64,000 bases of DNA, from NCBI RefSeq assembly GCF_001021165.1, contig NZ_AZAY01000002.1, positions 1-64,000 on the forward strand. The letters run 5' to 3'. The notes under the pieces were generated by a model. The model saw only the letters and a list, made by a program, of their open reading frames with translations. It did no database searches and was not told the origin of the DNA. Every line of letters starts with the position of its first letter. The first letter of the stretch is position 1. The stretch is from Marinitoga sp. 1197 (GTDB taxonomy: Bacteria > Thermotogota > Thermotogae > Petrotogales > Petrotogaceae). Position numbers and translations under genes: made by a program. This document shows positions 12,264 through 54,851 of this stretch, piece by piece.

Positions 12264-13640
12264 ATGAAAAAAATAATAGAGATATTTTTATTAATAATAT
12301 TTATATCTTTAATATCCACAGCATTTTCTAATATAATATGGGAAATAAGTCCATACAACTTTGAAGTAATAGACTATAATAAAAATTTGACCTTATCGTG
12401 GAGTTTAGATAAAAAAGCGAACTATTATAGCATATATTTTGGAGAGAATAAAAAAAACTTAAAATTAATATATAATGGTGAGAAAACTGAATATACAATA
12501 AAAGAATTAAAACCCAATAAAAATTATTATTGGAAAATAAAAGTTTATACAGATAATGAAATTATAGAATCAGAAATATTTAAATTTTATCTTCAATTAA
12601 AAAAACCAGAAATAAAAGATGTATTTCCAAATTTTCAATACAATATAGATTCAAAAAATGTAAAATTTAGTTGGAAAATAGATTATTCTATAAAATATAA
12701 TATTGAATTTATTTTATACAAAAACGATATCAAAGTTATTGATAAGCAGATAAATACAAATACATATATTATGAATCTATCTCCAGGTACAAAATATAAG
12801 TGGTATTTGAAACTAAAGGATAAATTTAATAACAAATATATATTTGGACCATATATATTTTCAACAAAGCCACATGAATTCATTATGAGTATTAAAAACA
12901 GAATCTATAAAATAAAAACATATGGAGATTATATAGAAAAAACTTTATTATATAATTCTGAATATAAAATTGAAAAAATTCAAAAATATGAAAATTTTAT
13001 TATATTAAAAACAAAAAATGGTATAGATATTATACATAAAACAGGAAGAGTTACTTCTAAAATTGACATTAAAAATATATTGGATTTTTTCGTAGAAAAA
13101 AAAGATAAAGAATTATTATTATACATAGTAGATGGAGAATCTCTTAGAGTTTTTGATATAACAAATCCATATTATCCATTCTTAAAAAAGCGTATTATAG
13201 GAAAGTTTGCATCAATTTCAGCAAATGAAAATTCAATAATATTATTGATGAAAAGTAAGATACTATTAATGAATAAAAAATTCAAAATATATTATCAAAA
13301 AAATCTGGAAAAACCAAAAAAAATAATATATAATGATAATAAAACACTTATTATCTTATCCGCAGATAAACTAATAAAATTTAATTATAAAAATAATATA
13401 TTATATTTTGATAGAGAATTGAATTTTTCTGGAATAATTGATTACAGCGTATATAAAAAGAAAATAGCTTTTTTGACTATAAATAATGAAATATATATAT
13501 ATGATACAGACTTTCACTTGATTAATTATAGATATTTTACAGAAAAAATAGAAAAAATAAAACTTTATACAGATTATATTTATAAAATATCCGAAGAATT
13601 AAAAATTATAGATATAGTGTGTCTAAAAAGTTTCAAATGA
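12264..13640 (+). CDS. Secreted Fn3-like protein of unknown function, 3' end altered by a repeat element
   Basis: A 458-residue protein with an N-terminal signal sequence ending near AFS and two fibronectin-III-like modules (about residues 25-115 and 115-210; motifs LSWSLD, NYYWKIKVY, KYKWYLKL). A beta-propeller-like repetitive region follows. No enzyme motif is seen. ATG 12264 follows TTGGAGGTTAAA. The last codons (VCLKSFK) come from the mobile repeat at 13616. Joining the flanks across the repeat gives an original ending IIDMKE-stop, so the insertion swapped the last three residues for eight. It is the last gene of the sensory operon. Confidence 0.78.
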   Translation: MKKIIEIFLLIIFISLISTAFSNIIWEISPYNFEVIDYNKNLTLSWSLDKKANYYSIYFGENKKNLKLIYNGEKTEYTIKELKPNKNYYWKIKVYTDNEIIESEIFKFYLQLKKPEIKDVFPNFQYNIDSKNVKFSWKIDYSIKYNIEFILYKNDIKVIDKQINTNTYIMNLSPGTKYKWYLKLKDKFNNKYIFGPYIFSTKPHEFIMSIKNRIYKIKTYGDYIEKTLLYNSEYKIEKIQKYENFIILKTKNGIDIIHKTGRVTSKIDIKNILDFFVEKKDKELLLYIVDGESLRVFDITNPYYPFLKKRIIGKFASISANENSIILLMKSKILLMNKKFKIYYQKNLEKPKKIIYNDNKTLIILSADKLIKFNYKNNILYFDRELNFSGIIDYSVYKKKIAFLTINNEIYIYDTDFHLINYRYFTEKIEKIKLYTDYIYKISEELKIIDIVCLKSFK

Positions 13641-13813
13641 AACGAAGACTCGAAGATTGCCCTTAAAATTATGAATGAAAGCCGTCAAAATTACATGGAT
13701 GTAATTTTGAGCGAAACAATACACGATGTATTGTTTGAGCGACGGCTGAGAATGAATAATTTTAAGGATTAGCAATCGAGCTGTCTGAGTGAATTTGGCT
13801 TTTTGGACGTCCT
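13616..13813 (+). mobile_element. Cloverleaf repeat, copy A (198 bp), with 12-bp target duplication
   Basis: Ends TGTCTAAAAAGT and CTTTTTGGAC are near-inverted. The direct repeat AATTATAGATAT flanks it at 13604-13615 and 13814-13825. The interior pairs in steps (CGA...ATTGC, CTTAAAATTA/TAATTTTAAG, GCCGTC/GACGGC). Two apical hairpins follow, one with arms AAAATTACAT/ATGTAATTTT and one with AAACAATACA/TGTATTGTTT. No coding capacity. It provides the stop codon of the upstream gene. Confidence 0.9.
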
Positions 13814-13840
13814 AATTATAGATATGAAGGAGTGATTAAT

Positions 13841-19600: not shown

Positions 19601-20555
19601 TGGTTTTTTATTGGTAGATAAACCTGCAGGTATTACCTCGCATGATGTTGTAGATATAATAAGAAAACGTTTCTCTACAAAAAAAGTAGGACATTCAGGA
19701 ACACTTGATCCTTTCGCCACAGGGTTGTTGATTTTGGGAATTAATAAAGGAACAAAATTATTGGAATACCTTCAGCATCAAAACAAAAAGTATTATGTAA
19801 AAGCAAAATTAGGAATAATCACTGATACATATGATATAACAGGTGAAATAAAAGAAAAATATAATCCTGAAAAAATACATATAGAAAAGTTAAAAGAAAT
19901 TATATTATCCTTTAAAGGAAAGTATATGCAGGTTCCACCTATGTATTCAGCAAGGAAATACAATGGAAAAAAATTATATGAACTTGCACGTGAAGGGAAA
20001 ATAATCAAGATGCCACCAAAAGAAGTGGAAATTTACAGTATAGAAAACATCAAAATTTCTGAAAATGGGACATTTGAATTTGAATGTGAGGTATCATCTG
20101 GAACATATATAAGGTCATTAATAATGGATATAGGTTATAAATCTGGAATAGGCGCTGTAACTATGGAGCTGAGAAGATTAAAAATAGGTAAATTCAAAAT
20201 AGAAGATAGCGTAAAACTTGATGATATTTCAGATATAATTCCTCTTTTTGAAATGCTTTCATTTCCATCTGTATTATTAAATGAAAAGGGAATTCAAAGG
20301 GCATTAAACGGTAATCATATATTTTTAGAACATGTTGAAAAATATGAAGAATTTAAAAAAGGAGAATTTATTTCGCTGATAGATAAAGAAAAAAATTTAA
20401 TAGCAGTAGCAATTGCTGAAAGAAATTCAAAATTTTTAAATACTCTGGAAAAACATGGCAAAAATGAGCGTGTGTTTAAAATAAAAAAAGTATTATATCA
20501 TATAGAATGTCTAAAAAGTCAAATTCACTCAGGCAGCTCGATTGCTAATCCTTAA
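19593..20555 (+). CDS. truB: tRNA pseudouridine(55) synthase TruB, C-terminus replaced by repeat-encoded residues
   Basis: TruB makes pseudouridine 55 in the T-loop of tRNA. The 320-residue protein has FLLVDKPAGITSHDVV, the catalytic Asp near D39 in HSGTLDPFATGLL, and MYSARKYNGKKLYELAREG. ATG 19593 (GGTGAAAATA upstream) overlaps rbfA. The last 15 or so residues (from ECLKSQ to SSIANP) are encoded by repeat copy B. Removing the repeat and one target duplication restores KKVLYHI followed by TAA, so the original protein ended there. The catalytic domain is intact and the added tail may be tolerated. Confidence 0.94.
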   Translation: MNDGFLLVDKPAGITSHDVVDIIRKRFSTKKVGHSGTLDPFATGLLILGINKGTKLLEYLQHQNKKYYVKAKLGIITDTYDITGEIKEKYNPEKIHIEKLKEIILSFKGKYMQVPPMYSARKYNGKKLYELAREGKIIKMPPKEVEIYSIENIKISENGTFEFECEVSSGTYIRSLIMDIGYKSGIGAVTMELRRLKIGKFKIEDSVKLDDISDIIPLFEMLSFPSVLLNEKGIQRALNGNHIFLEHVEKYEEFKKGEFISLIDKEKNLIAVAIAERNSKFLNTLEKHGKNERVFKIKKVLYHIECLKSQIHSGSSIANP

Positions 20556-20702
20556 AATTATTCATTCTCAGCCGTCGCATCGATTTTTCATCCATGAAAA
20601 AGCTTCACTCAAAAAAACGTCCTGTTTTTTTGACGGCTTCCATTCATAATTTTAAGGGCAATCTTCGAGCCTTCATTTCATTTTAGACTTTTTAGACAGC
20701 CT
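20504..20702 (-). mobile_element. Cloverleaf repeat, copy B (199 bp), with near-perfect 9-bp target duplication
   Basis: In orientation opposite to copy A. Ends are TGTCTAAAAAGTC and GACTTTTTAGACA. The flanks ATATCATAT (20495-20503) and ATATAATAT (20703-20711) differ at one base. The outer stem matches copies A, C and E, but the two apical hairpins are different sequences (TTTTTCAT/ATGAAAAA and CAAAAAAAC/GTTTTTTTG). It reads into the truB frame and supplies a new stop. Confidence 0.9.
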
Positions 20703-35179: not shown

Positions 35180-35378
35180 AGACTGTCTAAAAAGTCAAAT
35201 TCACTCAGGCAGCTCGATTGCTTATCCTTAAAATTATTCATTCTCAGCCGTCGCTCAAACAATACATCGTGTATTGTTTCGCTCAAAATCACATCCATGT
35301 AATTTTGACGGCTTCCATTCATAATTTTAAGGGCAATCTTCGAGCCTTCGTTTCATTTGAGACTTTTTGGACACCCTT
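35180..35378 (-). mobile_element. Cloverleaf repeat, copy C (199 bp), with 9-bp target duplication
   Basis: ATAACATTA flanks it at 35171-35179 and 35379-35387. The body is nearly identical to copies A and E in reverse orientation, with apical arms AAACAATACA/TGTATTGTTT and AAAATCACAT/ATGTAATTTT. It separates the deoC promoter from the deoC start codon. Confidence 0.9.
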
Positions 35379-45566: not shown

Positions 45567-47592
45567 ATCATTACTAGAAATAGGAGTTGAAGAATTACCA
45601 TCAAGTGAATATGAAAATATAATAAAACAATTATATACATATACAGAAGAAGAATTAAAATCAAGAAACATATCCTATTCCAAATTACAGGTGTTCATAG
45701 CGCCAAGAAGATTTGGAATATTATTAGAGGGACTGCCTGAAAAAGAACCGGATAGAACAATAGAAAGAAAAGGTCCCGCAAAAAAAGTTGCTTTTGATGA
45801 AAATGGTAATCCAGCCAGACCATACCAAGGATTTTTAAACTCATTAAAAGGTGAAAATTATGAAATAAAAGAAAAAGAAATAAAAGGCAATATATATATG
45901 TTTGCAAAAATAAAAAAAGAAGGTAAAAAAATATCTGAAACTCTATCGGAGATATATCCATCAATAATAAAAAAATTAAGATTTAAAAAACCAATGAGAT
46001 GGGGTAATGGTGATTATGAATTTATAAGGCCAGTACACTGGGTAGTGGCATTGTTGAATTATGATATAGTAGACTTCGAATTGTTTGGAATAAACACATC
46101 GAGAAAAACATTTGGACACAGATTCCTTGGAAAAGGTGAAATATCCATAAACCATCCGGAAAATTATTTTAATGAATTAAGAGAAAACTTTGTAATAGCA
46201 GATTATACAGAAAGAAAAGAAAGAGTAGAAAAAGAAATAGAAGCAATTTCAACAAATAACGAACTAAAAATCGAAAAAGATGAGGAATTAATAAATGAAA
46301 TAACACAACTAACCGAATATCCAACAGCAGTATTGGGATCATTTAATGAAGAATATCTGGATTTGCCAGAAGAAGTAATAAAAATTACAGTAAAACATCA
46401 TCAAAGAAGTTTCGTAGCAAAAAAAGAAAATAAAATAACAAATTATTACGTTGCATTTCAAGACGGATTAAGCGAAGAAAAAAACGTTACAAATGGATAT
46501 TCAAGAGTTATAAATGCAAGGCTTGATGATGCAAAATTCTATTATAAAGAAGACCTGAATACAGATGAAGAAACATATCTATCCAAATTAAATGAAATAA
46601 CCTATCAAGCAGGTCTTGGAACATATTTAGACAAAGTGAAAGCGTTAAAAGAAATATCAAAAATAATAGCAGAAAAACTCAACTACAAAAACCAAAATCT
46701 ATTAAAAGCAGCAGAACTCTCTAAAATAGATATTCCCACACATATAGTATATGAATTTCCTGAACTTCAAGGAACAATGGGAAGAATATATCTAAAGCAC
46801 AAAGGTTATAAAGAAGATATATACATGGTTCCAGAAGAACATTATAGACCAATTGAAGAAAATGATGAATTGCCATCAGATTTGAACTCATTAATAATAT
46901 CATTATCAGACAAATTATATGATATAATTGGTTTCTTTGGAATCAAAAAAATACCAACTGGTTCAAAAGACCCATTTGCACTTAGAAGAAAAGCATATGG
47001 GGTTTTAAGGATAATAATAGAAAACAATTGGGATATAGACCTAAATGAAATAATGAAAGAAATTGCAAAAATTATAAATATTGAATATCTCGAAAAAGAA
47101 ATCGCAGATTTCTTTAAAGGTAGATTTGAAACATATCTATCTAAAAAAGGAATATCAACCGATGTAATAAATACAGTAACAATAAACTGGAATAAACCAC
47201 TACGCGCATTAATATCAGCTCAAGCTTTAAATAAAGTAGTATACTCTGAAAACTTTAAAACATTCATAAAAACATTTCAAAGAGTACAGAATATATCCAG
47301 AAAACACGACTCTTTAAAATATGAAGGAAGATTATTTAAAGAAGAAGCAGAAAAACAATTATTCGATGAATACCTCACAGTAAAAAGCAAGATGGAAGAA
47401 AAAATAGAACATCTGGATTATGAAAGTGCAATAGAAGAATTATTAAAATTAAAAAGTGCAATAGACAATTACTTTGATAATGTTTTTGTTATGGATAAAG
47501 ACGAAAGTATAAGAATAAACAGATTGGGATTTTTAAAAAACATAGCCAATTTATTCCTTGAATTTGGTGATATTGAAAAGTTGTATAGTTAA
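45559..47592 (+). CDS. glyS: Glycine--tRNA ligase beta subunit
   Basis: The tRNA-binding beta subunit (677 residues from ATG 45559). Typical stretches are [62 protein letters not shown] and [15 protein letters not shown]. The C-terminal anticodon-binding region is complete. It follows glyQ with an 8-nt overlap. Repeat copy D begins 54 bp after the stop codon, in what would be the 3' end of the transcript. Confidence 0.97.
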
Positions 47593-47646
47593 TGATTTTG
47601 AAAATAAAAGTAATTATTGATTTTTAATTATTAATTTTTAATTATA

Positions 47647-47843
47647 CGATGTCTAAAAAGTCAAATTCACTCAGGCAGCTCGATTGCTTATCCTTAAAAT
47701 TATTCATTCTCAGCCGTCGCTCAGATTTTTCATCCATGAAAAAGCTTCACTCAAAAAAACATCCTGTTTTTTTGACGGCTTCCATTCATAATTTTAAGGG
47801 CAATCTTCGAGCCTTCATTTCATTTGAGACTTTTTAGACACCT
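47647..47843 (-). mobile_element. Cloverleaf repeat, copy D (197 bp)
   Basis: Same ends as copies B and C (TGTCTAAAAAGTC ... GACTTTTTAGACA) and the same apical hairpins as copy B (TTTTTCAT/ATGAAAAA and CAAAAAAAC/GTTTTTTTG). No clean target duplication is seen; the flanks are low-complexity AT. A small open frame across it is a by-product of the repeat. Confidence 0.88.
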
Positions 47844-47897
47844 ATTTAAATTTAATTACTATTATAAATTATTGATTTTTAAATTATATTCAAATTA

Positions 47898-47910
47898 GAC
47901 TTTTTAGACA
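47898..47910. repeat. Solo terminal repeat (GACTTTTTAGACA)
   Basis: One isolated 13-bp end of the cloverleaf family 55 bp beyond copy D. No matching direct repeats are seen around it. It may be the remains of an older copy. Confidence 0.6.
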
Positions 47911-47976
47911 TTCCATTATGTTCACGTAAATTGATAATTTCAGAAAATAATACTCTCACGTTATTTTTTTGAGATT

Positions 47977-48174
47977 ATTAGATTTTTTTAATTTTATATG
48001 TAGCGAAGGCTTGAAAATTCCCGAATGGAAGGATTACGTGAGCCGTCAAAATCACAAGGATGTGATTTTGAGCGCAGCCGAGCACGGATGCGAGTCTAAG
48101 CGACGGCGGCAAGTAATCCTGTAATGAGGAAAAGAATTTTCCGCCTGAGTGAATATAAAATAAAAAAATCTAAT
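47977..48174 (+). mobile_element. Cloverleaf repeat, divergent copy G (about 198 bp)
   Basis: Its outer arms are unrelated to copies A-E but pair with each other (ATTAGATTTTTTT near 47977, AAAAAAATCTAAT near 48162). Inner steps AAAATTC/GAATTTT, AGGATTAC/GTAATCCT and GCCGTC/GACGGC follow. The apex has AAAATCAC/GTGATTTT and a second arm with GAGCACGGATGCGAG. Structure is conserved while most paired sequence is not. Confidence 0.75.
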
Positions 48175-48223
48175 ATAAAAAATATAAAAATTAAAAACGC
48201 AGATAGAAGCGGAGCTGGAATTT

Positions 48224-49345
48224 ATGAAAATGGATTTATTAAATTACAGAAACATAAAAAAGTGCAAACATTTTGTTCCAATTTACAAAAGACCAACAAA
48301 ATACTTCGAAATTAACTATGAAGGAATAACAATAGTAGCCAGCTATGATGAATACGACAATAGAAGAAAAACAGCAAAGATATCCAGAGAATCAAGAAAA
48401 TTAAAATTAAACCATATATATCATATAATAGCTGTATATCTATACTTTCGAAAAAATGGAAAAGATGTCAGGGGAATAGAAGTAACCCTTGAAAATAAAG
48501 TCCATTATTTTTCTGAAAGATGGATAGAAAGAAAAATGCCATTATTAAAAAAAGAAATAGAATATTTTAAAACACCTCAGGAAAAAACACCAGGAAATCA
48601 CTGTAAATTCTGTAAAATAAAGGTTCAATGTCACAGAGAATTACTAAAAAAAGGGGACATATCCATAGTTCCTGGCATATCAACAAGCTATCTGAAATTA
48701 TTAAAAGATATAAATATCAACCCTATAAAAGCAGTAGAAGCAAATAAAATAGAACAGGTACCACCACAATTCAGAAAACCATTATATAATCTTAAATCAT
48801 TACTTGAAAACAAACCAATAATAATAAACAAATTTGACATACCAAAAAAATACATAGTATATGATGTTGAAACATATAGAGACCTTGATTTCCTACACGG
48901 AATATTAATAAAAAACAAATATAAAGCATTTTTAAATTTGGAAAATATAGATGATAACCTTGAGAGATTTTTAAAATTCATAGATTCAACAAAAGATATA
49001 ATAGTTCATTATGATGTTTATGACATAAAAAGACTTCAAATGATAACAAAAAACATATCACATCTATATAAATATCTCTACAAAATCGAAGACAGGTCAT
49101 ATGACTTATACGAAAAAATACAGAAAAATATAGCGATTCCAGTAACATCATATTCATTAAAAGACATAAGCAAATATTTTGGCTACAAATGGAGAACAGA
49201 TTTAAACGGATATGCCATATTTATAGAGTACAAAAATTACTTAAAAGGACATAAAGAAAGTCTGGAAAAAATAATAAAATACAACGAAGATGATTGCAGG
49301 GCAACAGCAATGATAATGGAAAAATTAAGGGAGTTGATGAAATGA
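48224..49345 (+). CDS. TM0106-type RecB-like nuclease with RNase H-like exonuclease domain
   Basis: A 373-residue protein. The N-terminal region is a shortened RecB/Cas4-like PD-(D/E)XK domain with a Fe-S cysteine set: one Cys near residue 14 (KKCKHF) and three in HCKFCKIKVQCHREL near 128. The C-terminal domain is an RNase H-like exonuclease (YprB type) with YDVETYRD, VHYDVYDIKRLQ and YNEDDCRATAMIMEKL carrying the acidic residues. This matches the TM0106 RecB-like family (name from memory), which is usually 100 or so residues longer at the N-terminus. It overlaps era by 4 nt. Repeat G ends 50 bp before the start, so its 5' end may have been trimmed. Confidence 0.8.
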   Translation: MKMDLLNYRNIKKCKHFVPIYKRPTKYFEINYEGITIVASYDEYDNRRKTAKISRESRKLKLNHIYHIIAVYLYFRKNGKDVRGIEVTLENKVHYFSERWIERKMPLLKKEIEYFKTPQEKTPGNHCKFCKIKVQCHRELLKKGDISIVPGISTSYLKLLKDININPIKAVEANKIEQVPPQFRKPLYNLKSLLENKPIIINKFDIPKKYIVYDVETYRDLDFLHGILIKNKYKAFLNLENIDDNLERFLKFIDSTKDIIVHYDVYDIKRLQMITKNISHLYKYLYKIEDRSYDLYEKIQKNIAIPVTSYSLKDISKYFGYKWRTDLNGYAIFIEYKNYLKGHKESLEKIIKYNEDDCRATAMIMEKLRELMK

Positions 49346-50244
49346 AAAGTGGATTTGTAGCAGTAGCAGGAAAACCAAATGTTGGGAAATCCACATTAAT
49401 AAATGCGATAATGAAAAGAAAAGTGGTTATAGTGTCAGATAAACCACAAACCACAAGAAATAGGGTAAATTGCATATTGAATACACCAGATGCACAGATA
49501 GTATTGGTGGATACACCGGGGATACATAAACCATTACATAAATTTGGAGAATATATGGTAAAAATAGCAATAAACGCATTAAAAGGGCAGGATTTAATAC
49601 TCTTTTTAATAGATCCAATAGATATGGTTAGAGAATCAGACCTGAACATAGCCAGAATAATAAAAGAATCCGGTATCCCCACAATACTGATAATAAACAA
49701 AGTAGATGCAGCAACACAAAATCAAATAGAAGAAGCAGAAAAAAGAATAAAAACAGTACTTGACGAAAAATCAAATGTCATAGCAGAATTCAAAATTTCA
49801 GCATTAACAGGTAAAAACATATCAGAATTACTTGAAAAAATAATAGAAGTATTACCAGAAGGGCCACAATATTTTCCTGAAGACATGACAACAGACAGGC
49901 CGTTAGCATTTATGATATCAGAATTAATAAGGGAAAAAATATTCCATTTAACCTCAGAAGAAATACCGCATTCTACAGCAGTAGTGGTGGAAGAAATAAC
50001 AAATAAAGAAAACCTTATATATATCAGAGCAGAAATATATATTGAAAGACAATCGCAAAAAGGTATAATCATAGGGCAAAAAGGAAGAATGATAAAAAAA
50101 ATAGGAATGCTCGCAAGAAAGGATATAGAAATGCTACTTGATGACAGAGTTTATCTTGATTTATATGTAAAAGTAAAAGACAAATGGAGACAAAAAGATT
50201 CGATAATATTAAATACAATAGGACTGAAAAACGACCTGGAATAA
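49342..50244 (+). CDS. era: GTPase Era
   Basis: Era binds the 3' end of 16S rRNA and helps 30S assembly. The 300-residue protein has the G1 loop GKPNVGKSTL, G2/G3 region SDKPQTTRNRVNCI and DTPGIHKP, G4 NKVD, and a C-terminal KH domain (ERQSQKGIIIGQKGRMIKKIG). The ATG at 49342 follows AAGGGAGTTGATGAA and overlaps the upstream stop; an in-frame ATG further upstream (49294) lies inside the nuclease gene. Repeat H follows 58 bp after the stop. Confidence 0.97.
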   Translation: MKSGFVAVAGKPNVGKSTLINAIMKRKVVIVSDKPQTTRNRVNCILNTPDAQIVLVDTPGIHKPLHKFGEYMVKIAINALKGQDLILFLIDPIDMVRESDLNIARIIKESGIPTILIINKVDAATQNQIEEAEKRIKTVLDEKSNVIAEFKISALTGKNISELLEKIIEVLPEGPQYFPEDMTTDRPLAFMISELIREKIFHLTSEEIPHSTAVVVEEITNKENLIYIRAEIYIERQSQKGIIIGQKGRMIKKIGMLARKDIEMLLDDRVYLDLYVKVKDKWRQKDSIILNTIGLKNDLE

Positions 50245-50302
50245 AAAAAGAATTTTTTGGATCGTGTATAATTAAAATAAAAAATATAATAAATATATAA
50301 TC

Positions 50303-50498
50303 TAAATATTTCAAAAAATAATATGAGAGAAAGCTTGAAATTTCCTGAAAAATTTTGAATGAAGTCGGTCAAAATCACATGGATGTGATTTTGAGTGAAA
50401 CCGAGCACGGATGCGAGTTTGAACGACCGGCGGGAATGAAAAATTTTGAAGATTAGAAATTTCACCGCTTGATCGAATATTATTTTGAGAAATATTTA
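50303..50498 (+). mobile_element. Cloverleaf repeat, divergent copy H (about 196 bp)
   Basis: Outer arms TAAATATTTC near 50303 and GAAATATTTA near 50489, then GAAATTTC/GAAATTTC and AAAATTTT/AAAATTTT steps, CGGTC/GACCG, and apical arms AAAATCACAT/ATGTGATTTT plus a second arm with GAGCACGGATGCGAG. It shares the unpaired GAATGAAG and GGGAATGA motifs with other copies. It occupies most of the gap between era and the convergent recombinase gene. Confidence 0.78.
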
Positions 50499-50528
50499 AT
50501 AGTAAAAAAATAACTATACTATTTCTAT

Positions 50529-51458
50529 TTATTCATTAAAATCAATAAGTTCATCCGCTTCAAGTGCAACAGAAGTTGCTTCATGATAATAAATCTGTGT
50601 TGTAGAAATATTCTTATGTCCTGCAATCTGTTTCGCAGCTTCTATGCCATGGTTTAAAGCTATTTTTGTAATAACAGTATGTCTGAATGAATGTGCAGAC
50701 AACTTTTTTCCGCCTCTAAAATCCTTCAAACCCAACTCATTAAAATATTTATCAATAATCATCTGAATAGCTCTTTCCGTTAAAGCATTTCCATATGAAT
50801 TCTTTGAAAGTGAAATAAATAAAGGATCATTTGGTTTAACCTTTTTTATCTTATTCCTTTCTTTTAAATAATCATTTATCGCTTCATATACATCCTTATG
50901 AAGTGAAATTATAGAATCCTTTCCAACATGACCTTTGGATTTATAATGCAGTAAAACCTTATTATTTCTTTTTACAATATCTCTTATTTTTATCCTCGTT
51001 AAAGAATATGTTCTTATACCTGTATATGCGAGCAATTTTATTATTGCCATATTTCTTTTTCCAGACAAATTTGACGTATCAATAGTTTGAAAAATCTCTC
51101 TTATCTCATCGTCTGTTAATATATCCTTTTGATGTCCAAAAGGTCTTTTGGCTCCTTTTACATTCCTTGCAATATTTGCATATAATCCTCTGTCTTCTAA
51201 AAAAGCAAAAAAACGCCTTATACCTGATAGGTATAAATTTACAGTATATGGACTTTTTTCCTTTAATAAAAAGGTTTTCCACATTTTAACTGTTTTTGGT
51301 GTTGGCTTTGATACATTGCGTTTTCTCAAATAATTTAAAAAATATTTTATAGACTTTGTATATTGTTTTTTTGTCTCATCAGTCACATCATCGAGTTCTT
51401 CAAGAAATTCAATGAGAATCTCATCAAATTTATTTATCTCTTTTCTTTCTATTTCCAC
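50529..51458 (-). CDS. Tyrosine recombinase (XerC/D-like)
   Basis: A 309-residue site-specific recombinase: N-terminal SAM-like core-binding domain (residues 10-100) and a catalytic domain with TGIRTYSLTR (first Arg), KSKGHVGKD (Lys), SAHSFRHT (His-x-x-Arg), AGHKNISTTQIYYH (second His and the Tyr nucleophile). The set is complete. GTG 51458 is favoured because AGAGGT lies seven bases upstream; a TTG at 51464 is only one base from it. It overlaps the Lon-like gene by 10 nt. It could be the chromosome-dimer resolvase or an element integrase; no phage or island genes surround it, favouring the former. Confidence 0.9.
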   Translation of the reverse strand: MEIERKEINKFDEILIEFLEELDDVTDETKKQYTKSIKYFLNYLRKRNVSKPTPKTVKMWKTFLLKEKSPYTVNLYLSGIRRFFAFLEDRGLYANIARNVKGAKRPFGHQKDILTDDEIREIFQTIDTSNLSGKRNMAIIKLLAYTGIRTYSLTRIKIRDIVKRNNKVLLHYKSKGHVGKDSIISLHKDVYEAINDYLKERNKIKKVKPNDPLFISLSKNSYGNALTERAIQMIIDKYFNELGLKDFRGGKKLSAHSFRHTVITKIALNHGIEAAKQIAGHKNISTTQIYYHEATSVALEADELIDFNE

Positions 51459-53815
51459 AGCCAAAACCTCTTTTTAGTGGGATGTAATTTCTTTAAATAC
51501 CTTATTCCTTCCAATACCCTATAATTTACCGTATCCTTTTCATAATTCCCAAATTCATCTGTTTTCCCAGCTTTTTTATCCATCATTATATCTATCGCAT
51601 CATCTACATTTTTTACAACATATATATGAAATTTATTATTTTTAATAGCTTCTTCAATTTCATGATTCAACACAATATTTTTAACATTTTGATATGGAAT
51701 TACTACGCCATGTTTCGAGTTTAATCCCTTAATTTTACATACATTATAAAAACCTTCTATCTTTTCTATTATTCCACCAACAGGCTGTATATTCCCATTC
51801 TGATCAATAGAACCTGTTACAGCAAAATTTTGCTTTATTGGAACAGCTGATATTGCAGATATCAACGCCAAAACCTCTGCAAGAGATGCACTGTCTCCTT
51901 CGAGTATAGAATACACTTGTTCAAAACTTATTGAGGCAGAAAATACCATGTTTTCATCAAGATGATACTTTGAATAAAAATAATTTTCTATAATATACGT
52001 TGATTTCCTGTGTATTTTTCCGCTCATATCAGAATCCCTTTGAATATCGAGCAATCCCGCCTGCTTTGCCGAGAAAACTTTAGCTGTTATCTTTACAGGC
52101 ACTCCAAAGGATAACGTATCTACCTCCATAACCGTTAAACCATTTATCTGACCGATTTTCATACCATCTGTCTCCAAAATCAATTGCCCATCTTTTATTG
52201 AATCCATTATTTTATCCCTGTATAAAGAGAACATGTTTTCATGTTTTTTAATAGCTTCTTTTACAGCATTGCCATCAACATATGGTATAGTATCACTATA
52301 TCTATCAGAAATATAATTTGATTCAAGTATAATGTTCTTTAATAATCCAAATTTTGCAGAAAGCTTATCATTTCTTCCATTAATTCGACATGAATACTTT
52401 ATCAATTCTTCTATTGCCTTTTTCGTAAAATCTCTTAAATTATTTTCCTTTATTATATTTTTTACAAACTGTGCAAAATAATCAGCATTTTCCTTATTTA
52501 AATCGATTTCCGTATCAAAAGGTACCTTTATATTAAATAATTTTTTAAAATCGGGATCATAAGCATATAACATTTCATACATCCACTCTTCTCCTATTAA
52601 AATTACCTTTATATCAAGTGGAATAGGGTCTGGCTCCAGAGTATGAACAACACTTAATCCCATTTTCCCCTCTAAATTCTCTATCTTCACTTCCCTATTC
52701 ATCAAAGCATTTTTTAACGCTTCCCATACATATGGATTTCTCATAACCTTTTCAGCATCAAGAATTAAATATCCACCATTAGCCTTATGTAGCATCCCTG
52801 GCTTTATCATCATAAAATCTGTTTTTAATACACCCATTTGCGAAATATACTCAATCTTCCCTATTAATGAAGAATAAGTTGGATCCGTTGCTTCTATTAC
52901 AGGAGCTCCACTTATTGATGAATTGTCGATTATAATATTTACAGAATATTTCTTTCTATAATATTTTAATATATTTTCATCGGATAAAATTTCTGGAAAG
53001 TTTTCTGACAGGTCGTTTTTTATATCATTTAAATATTCAACCACATCAGAATTTCCATTATACTTTTTTATAAGATTCTCAAATATTCCAGATATTGTAA
53101 ATAAAGCCCAATATTTTTCAAGATTTCTCAATTGTTCACGATAACTTTTATCAGTTTCTGTTATTTTTATCATAGCTTTTTCCATCAATTGCCTTAAAAT
53201 AGGAGTTTTTTCTTCATACTTACTTTTTATATCTTCTGGTAATTTTTCATACTCCTCATCCGTTAGCTCTTTACCTTCATATACTGGTATAGTTACAGCA
53301 CCGTCGGATGTAAATTGTAGCTTAAAACTCAAACTTTCCACTTGTTTTTTCAAATCTTCCCATATTTTTTTTCTTTCATTTAAATATTCCTGCTCTAATT
53401 GTGTCCTTTTTTGTGAAAAGTCCTCACCTTCAAGTCCTTTTTTTATAGCATTAAAAGCCATTTCTATGGTTTCTTCAAGCTCGTTTTTAAAAATTTTAGC
53501 CTCTCCAGATTTCAATGAAATGGCTTTTGGCCTCATCGAATTCTTAAAATTATAAACATAAATATAATCCTTTGGTGTTTTTTTATTTGTTGAATATTGT
53601 GCCAAAATATTTTTAGCAAAAGTCCTCCTGCCTGTATTTACTGGACCTGTTATAAAAATATTATGTGTTTTCTGTTCTATTTCAAGGCCCATTAAAATAG
53701 ATTCGTATGCTCTTTTCTGACCAAAATATTGTGTTATTGGCTTTAAACTCTCTGTAGTTTCAAAATTCAATTGTGGCATATTAATCTTAAAATCTTCTAA
53801 TTTTAATTTCAACAT
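51449..53815 (-). CDS. Lon-like ATP-dependent protease (AAA_32/LonC-type)
   Basis: A 788-residue protein. Residues 40-60 hold a Walker A-like loop GPVNTGRRTFAKN, lacking the usual GKT, and a coiled region spans about 120-260. A second AAA-type region has GGYLILDAEKVMRNPYVWE, and a C-terminal S16 protease domain has the catalytic dyad S642 (EGDSASLAE) and K685 (GGIIEKIEGF), spaced 43 residues as in Lon. The altered P-loop points to the AAA_32 Lon family, whose members may lack ATPase activity. It would degrade unfolded proteins in the cytosol. ATG 53815 follows GGAGGTGAA and a short GC hairpin. Confidence 0.9.
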   Translation of the reverse strand: MLKLKLEDFKINMPQLNFETTESLKPITQYFGQKRAYESILMGLEIEQKTHNIFITGPVNTGRRTFAKNILAQYSTNKKTPKDYIYVYNFKNSMRPKAISLKSGEAKIFKNELEETIEMAFNAIKKGLEGEDFSQKRTQLEQEYLNERKKIWEDLKKQVESLSFKLQFTSDGAVTIPVYEGKELTDEEYEKLPEDIKSKYEEKTPILRQLMEKAMIKITETDKSYREQLRNLEKYWALFTISGIFENLIKKYNGNSDVVEYLNDIKNDLSENFPEILSDENILKYYRKKYSVNIIIDNSSISGAPVIEATDPTYSSLIGKIEYISQMGVLKTDFMMIKPGMLHKANGGYLILDAEKVMRNPYVWEALKNALMNREVKIENLEGKMGLSVVHTLEPDPIPLDIKVILIGEEWMYEMLYAYDPDFKKLFNIKVPFDTEIDLNKENADYFAQFVKNIIKENNLRDFTKKAIEELIKYSCRINGRNDKLSAKFGLLKNIILESNYISDRYSDTIPYVDGNAVKEAIKKHENMFSLYRDKIMDSIKDGQLILETDGMKIGQINGLTVMEVDTLSFGVPVKITAKVFSAKQAGLLDIQRDSDMSGKIHRKSTYIIENYFYSKYHLDENMVFSASISFEQVYSILEGDSASLAEVLALISAISAVPIKQNFAVTGSIDQNGNIQPVGGIIEKIEGFYNVCKIKGLNSKHGVVIPYQNVKNIVLNHEIEEAIKNNKFHIYVVKNVDDAIDIMMDKKAGKTDEFGNYEKDTVNYRVLEGIRYLKKLHPTKKRFWLWK

Positions 53816-53829
53816 TTCACCTCCGTACT

Positions 53830-53840
53830 CGCCTGCGGCG
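53830..53840 (-). repeat. Short GC-rich hairpin before the Lon-like gene
   Basis: CGCC-GCA-GGCG on the minus strand, ending 7 bp before the GGAGGTG ribosome binding site, and preceded by TTATCCAATAACC. See the matching sites at 1544-1554 and 21278-21288. Confidence 0.5.
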
Positions 53841-53880
53841 GGTTATTGGATAAAAAACATTATAAAACCATTATGCTAAA

Positions 53881-53889
53881 ATTATATCA
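53881..53889 (-). promoter_or_regulatory. Extended -10 promoter of the Lon-like gene
   Basis: TGATATAAT on the minus strand (TATAAT 53881-53886), 65 bp before the start codon. Repeat F ends just upstream and supplies the -35 region. Confidence 0.55.
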
Positions 53890-53906
53890 CACAATAGTAA
53901 TGAAAT

Positions 53907-54100
53907 AGTGTGTCCAATTAGTAAAGCAAGCGAAAACTCGCGGATTGTCCGAAAAAATAGCGAATGAAACCGGTCAATTTTGCATGGATGCAAAATTGAG
54001 TGAAGCCGAACATGGATGTGAGTCTGATACGACCGGCGAGAATGAGCTATTTTTGAGGATTAACAATCAAGGTTTGAGCGACTTTACTTTTTGGACATCG
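53907..54100 (+). mobile_element. Cloverleaf repeat, divergent copy F (194 bp)
   Basis: Ends TGTCCAATTAG / CTTTTTGGACA, i.e. a degraded left end and a family-type right end. Inner steps ATTG/CAAT, AAAATAGC/GCTATTTT and CCGGTC/GACCGG; apical arms AATTTTGCAT/ATGCAAAATT. It keeps GAATGAAA and GAGAATGA at the same places as other copies. No clear target duplication. It lies between the pilin terminator and the Lon promoter. Confidence 0.82.
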
Positions 54101-54148
54101 TATAATAATAAAAGGATATAGCAAATCACTATATCCTTTATTATTATT
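54101..54148 (-). terminator. Terminator of the pilin gene
   Basis: A 19-bp stem made of ATAATAATAAAGGATATAG and its complement around loop TGATTTG, 20 bp after the pilin stop on the minus strand. Long but AT-rich and without a T-run after it, so it may also protect the mRNA end. Confidence 0.7.
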
Positions 54149-54630: not shown

Positions 54631-54826
54631 AGACGTCTAAAAAGTCTCAAATGAAACGAAGACTCGAAGATTGCCCTTAAAATTATGAATGAAAGCCGTC
54701 AAAATTACATGGAAGTAATTTTGAGCGAAACAATACACGATGTATTGTTTGAGCGACGGCAGAGAAAGAATAATTTTAAGGATTAGCAATCAAGCTGTCT
54801 GAGTGAATTTGACTTTTTAGACATCG
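54631..54826 (+). mobile_element. Cloverleaf repeat, copy E (196 bp), with 13-bp target duplication
   Basis: TATTAAATTTTTA flanks it at 54618-54630 and 54827-54839, the longest duplication seen. The body nearly matches copy A; one apical arm reads ATTACATGGAAGTAAT. It lies between the pilin promoter and the pilin start codon, so it is in the mRNA leader. Confidence 0.92.
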
Positions 54827-54851
54827 TATTAAATTTTTATAAAACAATAAT

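Follow-up and report, generated by a model that had tools for sequence, protein, structure and literature searches.

The stretch from 47977 to 54100 of a 64,000-nucleotide segment of the Marinitoga sp. 1197 genome (contig NZ_AZAY01000002.1 of assembly GCF_001021165.1, positions 1 to 64,000; hereafter the window) contains copies of a dispersed repeat that, judged by covariance-model scores and shared motifs, are members of the TwoAYGGAY RNA family (Rfam RF01731). These copies are recent, mobile elements that resemble miniature inverted-repeat transposable elements (MITEs), and they carry an RNA that is under selection. Our best reading, held with moderate confidence, is that TwoAYGGAY is the payload of a mobile element and would act as a decoy RNA that binds CsrA. 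Eight copies lie in the window, three of which (G, E and F) touch the stretch; a single feature covering 47977-54100 was rejected, as these are three separate copies with ordinary genes between them. The host genome (2.27 Mb in 51 contigs) was searched whole with a covariance model built from six E and F copies. At a threshold of E<=0.001 this search recovers 70 copies in the host, and 41, 29, 25, 5, 1 and 1 in six congeners.

Three window matches exceed the RF01731 gathering score of 43 bits, at 50322 (50.4 bits, copy E), 13648 (45.6 bits, a subfamily A copy) and 47673 (45.6 bits, copy C); copies G and F score below the cut-off, yet are homologous by our covariance model R1. Two AYGGAY-type hairpin loops are present in C, E, F, G and K, while the second hairpin of subfamily A ends in CGA. 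Weinberg et al. described TwoAYGGAY in 2010 from Gammaproteobacteria, Clostridiales and human gut samples, judging it to be a probable RNA that is probably not cis-regulatory (PMC2864571). CsrA binding was proposed in 2014 from motif matches alone, in work that also pointed out two tandem G.A motifs (PMC4333381). Our literature searches found no experimental follow-up of TwoAYGGAY, and those on Marinitoga repeats and on MITEs in connection with CsrA gave no lead. The family and the CsrA idea are thus already published; the mobility, covariation, strand test and co-occurrence reported here are new.

The elements are non-coding, approximately 190-225 bp long, and possess terminal inverted repeats (TIRs) and no transposase open reading frame (ORF), as in MITEs. 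Copies of A, C and F have inverted-repeat ends of the type GTCYAAWWAGT and flanking direct repeats, often of 8-14 bp; no direct repeat was found at copy F of the window. The interval between the gene ending at 47592 and the gene starting at 48224 holds copies C and G in the window, measures 7-42 bp in five congeners, and holds G alone in the sister species G005; the site of copy C is empty in all six relatives. G is shared with G005 and C with none; G was the earlier insertion, and C arrived once the host and the sister species had diverged. A preliminary description of this DNA, which had set selection on a fold against mere decay of an old transposon, therefore drew a false contrast: the copies are recent and mobile, with terminal repeats, target duplications and empty sites in relatives.

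In a further sister species, G004, many copies feature different, IS1182-type ends (CAGACTGTTGACAAA). Most of these copies are flanked on either side by an entire terminator stem-loop (direct repeats of 16-26 bp), which gives the impression that the palindrome in its entirety was duplicated as the target site; such terminator-flanked elements lie within loci L243-L262, e.g. L246:1037, L250:10781 and L254:1028. Relatives of IS1182 are known to target terminator hairpins (PMC4923244). In our host, near-identical ends abut terminator hairpins at four contig ends (C5 end, C13 end, C8 start and C23 start) and lead into the N-terminus of an IS1182-family transposase, the contigs breaking inside the insertion sequence (IS); an IS1182 N-terminus was thereby found behind ends that match the G004 type. 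No autonomous element with GTCTAAAAAG ends, as a partner IS of the A, C and F ends, was found, with some small contigs masked in this search. One RNA core thus rides different mobile ends; it was found between the unrelated ends GTCTAAAAAG, AAATATTTC and CAGACTGTTGACAAA.

The core comprises an outer helix, a middle helix, an inner helix and two hairpins. The outer helix is GATTGC/GCAATC in A and C, GATTGT/ACAATC in F, and GAAAATTC/GAATTTTC in G; the inner helix occurs as GCCGTC, CCGGTC or GCTGTC, and in relatives as GGTTTCC, GCCTGAC and others. The preliminary description had reported stems, including the middle helix, that are swapped between subfamilies and still pair, and every stem it quoted is present in the sequence. 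To measure pairing we used an alignment (A3), fitted to the structure, to which the host and six congeners together contribute 133 copies. Within it, 96.5% of cells are paired, against 77.4% with the letters of the 3' arm shuffled and 34-48% with the register slid. The corresponding covariation scores are 0.486 for the alignment itself, 0.158 after shuffling and no more than 0.097 after sliding. Both-sided changes were seen at 32 of the 40 pairs. Related copies inflate such counts, so we simulated alignments on the element tree with the substitutions per column preserved; against this phylogenetic null, and with all column pairs considered, E<0.05 was obtained for 12 of the 40 structural pairs. 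The covariation above phylogeny on which the preliminary description had made its case depend is thus present. A total of 21 column pairs are significant, and most of the non-structural ones fall within the stem of hairpin 1. Because A3 was fitted to the structure, the test was repeated on a sequence-only MAFFT alignment, where 9 of 39 structural pairs are significant. RNA folding z-scores of the window copies range from -2.2 to -9.6, and the predicted folds agree with the core. Stem pairing is beyond chance, and the fold is under selection.

The stretches that the preliminary description regarded as constant, unpaired and recognized are probably tandem G.A helical steps, as the literature on the family would lead one to expect. 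GAATGA can pair with GAATGA as GA-AT-GA, and GAGYGA with an RCGA-type partner as GA-GY-GA, e.g. GAGTGA/GAACGA in copy E and GAGCGA/GAGCGA in copy A. The loops likely to be recognized are instead the two AYGGAY tips, which that description did not mention.

The most invariant positions of the whole element are the GGA of both hairpin loops. Of 124 distinct copies, 123 retain GGA in hairpin 1 and 99 in hairpin 2; most of those that lack it in hairpin 2 belong to subfamily A. The hairpin-1 GGA is free of changes throughout the tree, with 9.7 expected on internal branches (P=6e-5) and 6.9 on terminal ones (P=0.001); the terminal-branch result indicates that this motif is constrained even in recent copies. 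Loops such as ACAUGGAUGU fit the CsrA-site consensus RUACARGGAUGU from systematic evolution of ligands by exponential enrichment (SELEX). The two GGAs are 28-29 nt apart, and a CsrA dimer bridges sites 10-63 nt apart with an optimum above 18 (PMC7652899); the copies thus present ANGGA in hairpin loops at a spacing within the bridging range. The host has a single csrA with the usual RNA-contact residues, and csrA shares an operon-like cluster with a gene for FliW. The gene adjoining csrA encodes a 326-aa protein with two FliW domains, i.e. two Pfam PF02623 stretches (L106:16862-17842, contig C25, minus strand). We consider it likely that the copies bind CsrA.

To look beyond the genus, we ran a DNA pattern of two CAYGGATG loops and an AGYGA linker on a species-level genome collection. 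It matched 117 stretches, with an estimated dozen or so expected by chance. The hosts include Lachnospiraceae, Colwellia, Pseudoxanthomonas and Nevskia, often with several copies per genome, and many matches were confirmed as RF01731; CsrA was found in 18 of 20 sampled host genomes picked by the pattern. A set of 200 genomes from the family around Lachnospiraceae NK4A179 has CsrA in 32 of the 33 members with RF01731 vs 76 of the 167 without it (P=4e-9). One genome (G223), with at least 13 RF01731 matches and CsrA present, gave no match to FliW. Among 61 Thermotogota relatives RF01731 was found only in this genus, and CsrA in 41. In Nevskia and other Gammaproteobacteria (L269, L270, L313, L341 and related loci), another dispersed palindrome, GGTTACTTTCTT..AAGAAAGTAACTCGCGCGATAGCGCG, comes after the TwoAYGGAY copy. 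A viral contig, L383 (IMGVR_UViG_2895495289_000001), features a TwoAYGGAY-like double hairpin similar to the Pseudoxanthomonas copies.

We infer that the copies are transcribed, that the RNA would bind CsrA, and that it would titrate this protein rather than control genes in cis. The transcript of the GGA strand would fold into a rod of two nested helices with tandem G.A steps, and two hairpins would protrude from the junction at its end. An ANGGA loop would be exposed on each of them, and the pair of loops may form the docking site for one CsrA dimer. A transcribed copy could then bind CsrA and titrate it off its mRNA targets in the manner of CsrB or RsmZ; each molecule would offer two sites, and a genome holds as many as 70 copies. 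Such an RNA antagonist would act beside FliW. Whether titration in trans is the main outcome we regard as evenly balanced.

Several points weigh against a CsrA decoy. CsrA co-occurs with FliW and flagella: in the same 200 genomes FliW is present in 30 of 33 with RF01731 vs 75 of 167 without it, so the association with CsrA could partly reflect motile lineages and cannot be cleanly separated from motility. The genomes also lack phylogenetic independence. In subfamily A the second GGA is lost, leaving one site. The stem of hairpin 1 is long (9-11 bp), and SELEX ligands mostly have no more than 4 contiguous pairs (PMC7652899). Two species of the genus have csrA yet carry a single copy each.

The location of the copies bears on a different role for CsrA, in which each copy would be a cis-regulatory element of an mRNA leader or trailer through which CsrA controls the flanking gene. 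Rfam itself types RF01731 as Cis-reg, the CsrA motif would suit such a role, and predicted ORFs are avoided by 64 of 69 copies in a genome whose crude coding fraction is 90%. However, by statistics drawn from our own genome only and on crude gene calls, the copies are not oriented with genes: those within tandem gene pairs are antisense in 25 cases and sense in 13 (two-sided P=0.07), and for 45 of 66 elements the neighboring gene on the 5' side is encoded on the other strand. This placement does not look like that of a leader or trailer element, and the discoverers of the motif also marked it as probably not cis-regulatory (PMC2864571). We consider cis control unlikely.

The preliminary description had left a choice between a structured RNA and a folded-DNA substrate, and the direction of stem changes separates the two. 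When one member of a Watson-Crick pair undergoes a transition, the strand read shows either G.U or A.C. Selection for an RNA of the GGA strand leaves G.U as the one tolerated intermediate; selection on a DNA hairpin, or none, predicts no preference. Parsimony assigned 44 changes to G.U, 14 to A.C and 102 to double compensations (P=5e-5), a count that leaves out copies with a replaced left end and the loop-closing pairs; the raw ratio of G.U to A.C is 58:36, and the split between included and excluded sites was chosen after this was known. The excluded loop-closing A-U pair (A3 columns 74/107 and 132/140) shows only A.C changes, in 11 events with no G.U, yielding GGACG loops. The commonest change in unpaired columns is G to A, a bias that opposes the excess of G.U. 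The fold is therefore selected as RNA of the GGA strand, as G.U exceeds A.C and the ANGGA loops are near-absolutely conserved on one strand; of the two options, selection on the fold holds for either, and RNA is favored over DNA. Folding energy was dropped as a discriminator, as DNA strands fold comparably well. A fold that acts as single-stranded or cruciform DNA, recognized by the transposase or at the replication fork and with its pairing kept for transposition, would suit mobile copies and the finding that DNA of either strand folds about equally well relative to shuffles. The strand-asymmetric stem changes argue against it, as do the presence of the same RNA core between unrelated ends and the recurrence of the family in other phyla, where it tracks CsrA; we thus regard a DNA fold, too, as improbable.

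The elements may also be ordinary MITEs whose hairpins serve as bidirectional terminators or stabilizers of RNA ends, with incidental GGA loops. Their long stems are flanked by A/T runs, and the copies of G004 sit inside terminators. Generic terminators, however, have no loop conservation, whereas GGA is the least variable part of these elements, and the co-occurrence with CsrA would be left unexplained; these data make incidental loops quite doubtful. Least probable is a fold without function, its palindromes kept perfect by intrastrand template switching or by gene conversion between copies: hairpin-1 modules are common to otherwise different subfamilies, which resembles module exchange, and the tree-based null presumes no recombination, but helices with arms 70-130 nt apart, which are not exchangeable in a single swap, covary too (columns 2/201, 4/199, 60/161 and 61/160), and template switching would not predict more G.U than A.C.

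No function has been demonstrated for TwoAYGGAY since 2010; a host with 70 natural copies, a clear RNA-strand signature and only one csrA allows the CsrA hypothesis to be tested directly. A 2020 review described the joint action of FliW and small RNAs on CsrA as not determined in any species (PMC7652899); FliW, CsrA and a candidate CsrA-binding RNA occur together in this organism and in approximately 30 sampled genomes of the Lachnospiraceae-centered family. More speculatively, TwoAYGGAY might in general be a transposable CsrA decoy, carried in Thermotogota, Lachnospiraceae and Gammaproteobacteria by non-autonomous elements whose ends are unrelated, either because CsrA binding helps the element or because the host co-opts copy number to set CsrA dosage alongside FliW. 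If true, the transposon-like spread of a regulatory decoy would be a new route by which the dosage of a global regulator could evolve.

Within the stretch, copy G spans 47960-48184 on the plus strand, with its fold core at 48014-48144, GGA loops at 48058 and 48086, private outer arms AGATTTTTTTAATTTTATA / TATAAAATAAAAAAATCT and an RF01731 score of 34.8 bits. Copy E, called H in the preliminary description, spans 50301-50499 on the plus strand (core 50338-50466, GGA loops at 50381 and 50409) with terminal arms AAATATTTC/GAAATATTT; BLAST of this copy against phage and plasmid sequences gave no match. Copy F occupies 53909-54106 on the plus strand (core 53942-54073, GGA loops at 53986 and 54014, TIR GTCCAATTAGTAAAG / CTTTACTTTTTGGAC) and scores 34.2 bits against RF01731 and 157.6 bits against R1, whose training set includes it. 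Downstream, copy A lies at 54633-54829 on the plus strand (core 54668-54796), with GGA at 54711 in hairpin 1, a CGA loop in hairpin 2, TIR GTCTAAAAAGTC and the direct repeat TATTAAATTTTTA on both sides. Copy C spans 47641-47842 on the minus strand (core 47677-47806), with two GGA loops 29 nt apart. The remaining window copies belong to subfamily A at 13617-13817 (plus strand, direct repeat AATTATAGATAT on either side) and 35181-35375 (minus strand, direct repeat TAATGTTAT), and to subfamily C at 20502-20700 (minus strand). A loose motif pattern run on the host genome returned nothing useful.

The copies also show signs of rearrangement. In approximately ten, of subfamilies A, C and F, the left half is interrupted or replaced by a module ending in CTTAGATTTTTTA..TAAAAAATCTAAGCGT, with an identical breakpoint each time (e.g. 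C14:37179-37475, C23:65092-65436, C25:104400-104681 and C48:115183-115529 of the host genome). This module contains the reverse complement of a repeated leader, CCCGCCGYAGGCG..CGGAGGTG, that stands directly before start codons, at 53820-53846 of the window and upstream of several multi-copy genes. A chimera at C14:42571-42835 comprises two elements fused in opposite orientation via their hairpins. Where two TwoAYGGAY elements lie close together, they usually diverge head-to-head, the minus-strand copy preceding the plus-strand one; this holds for 11 of 16 pairs within 800 bp (P=3e-4 vs one quarter), e.g. at 47641-48184 of the window, at C25:10109-10639, and in G002 and Lachnospiraceae.

Compared with known systems, these elements share dispersed intergenic palindromes with the hairpin elements of the repetitive extragenic palindrome (REP)/REP-associated tyrosine transposase (RAYT) and IS200/IS605 types. 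The latter have neither TIRs nor target duplications, whereas both were found here, and an identity as a REP- or IS200-type element was rejected for this reason. With the IS1182 family and its MITEs (IS1272/TnSha1), the G004 elements share IS1182-type ends and a location in terminators. IS1272 reportedly cuts blunt and leaves no duplication (PMC4923244), unlike the G004 sites, where the stem-loop is wholly duplicated (16-26 bp), and the A, C and F ends of the window differ from those of the IS1182 family. TwoAYGGAY as published resembles our copies in its two AYGGAY hairpins, their nesting and the tandem G.A steps, and several copies reach the gathering score. The present copies differ in numbering 1-70 per genome, in residing on mobile elements with terminal repeats, in a host phylum, Thermotogota, absent from the original paper's list, and in the loss of one GGA in subfamily A. 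Finally, like the CsrB, CsrC and RsmX/Y/Z small RNAs, whose GGA hairpins titrate CsrA/RsmA, this RNA would titrate CsrA through GGA hairpins. Unlike them, it shows no homology by Rfam match, offers two sites instead of many, is multi-copy and mobile, and occurs in hosts that also carry FliW.

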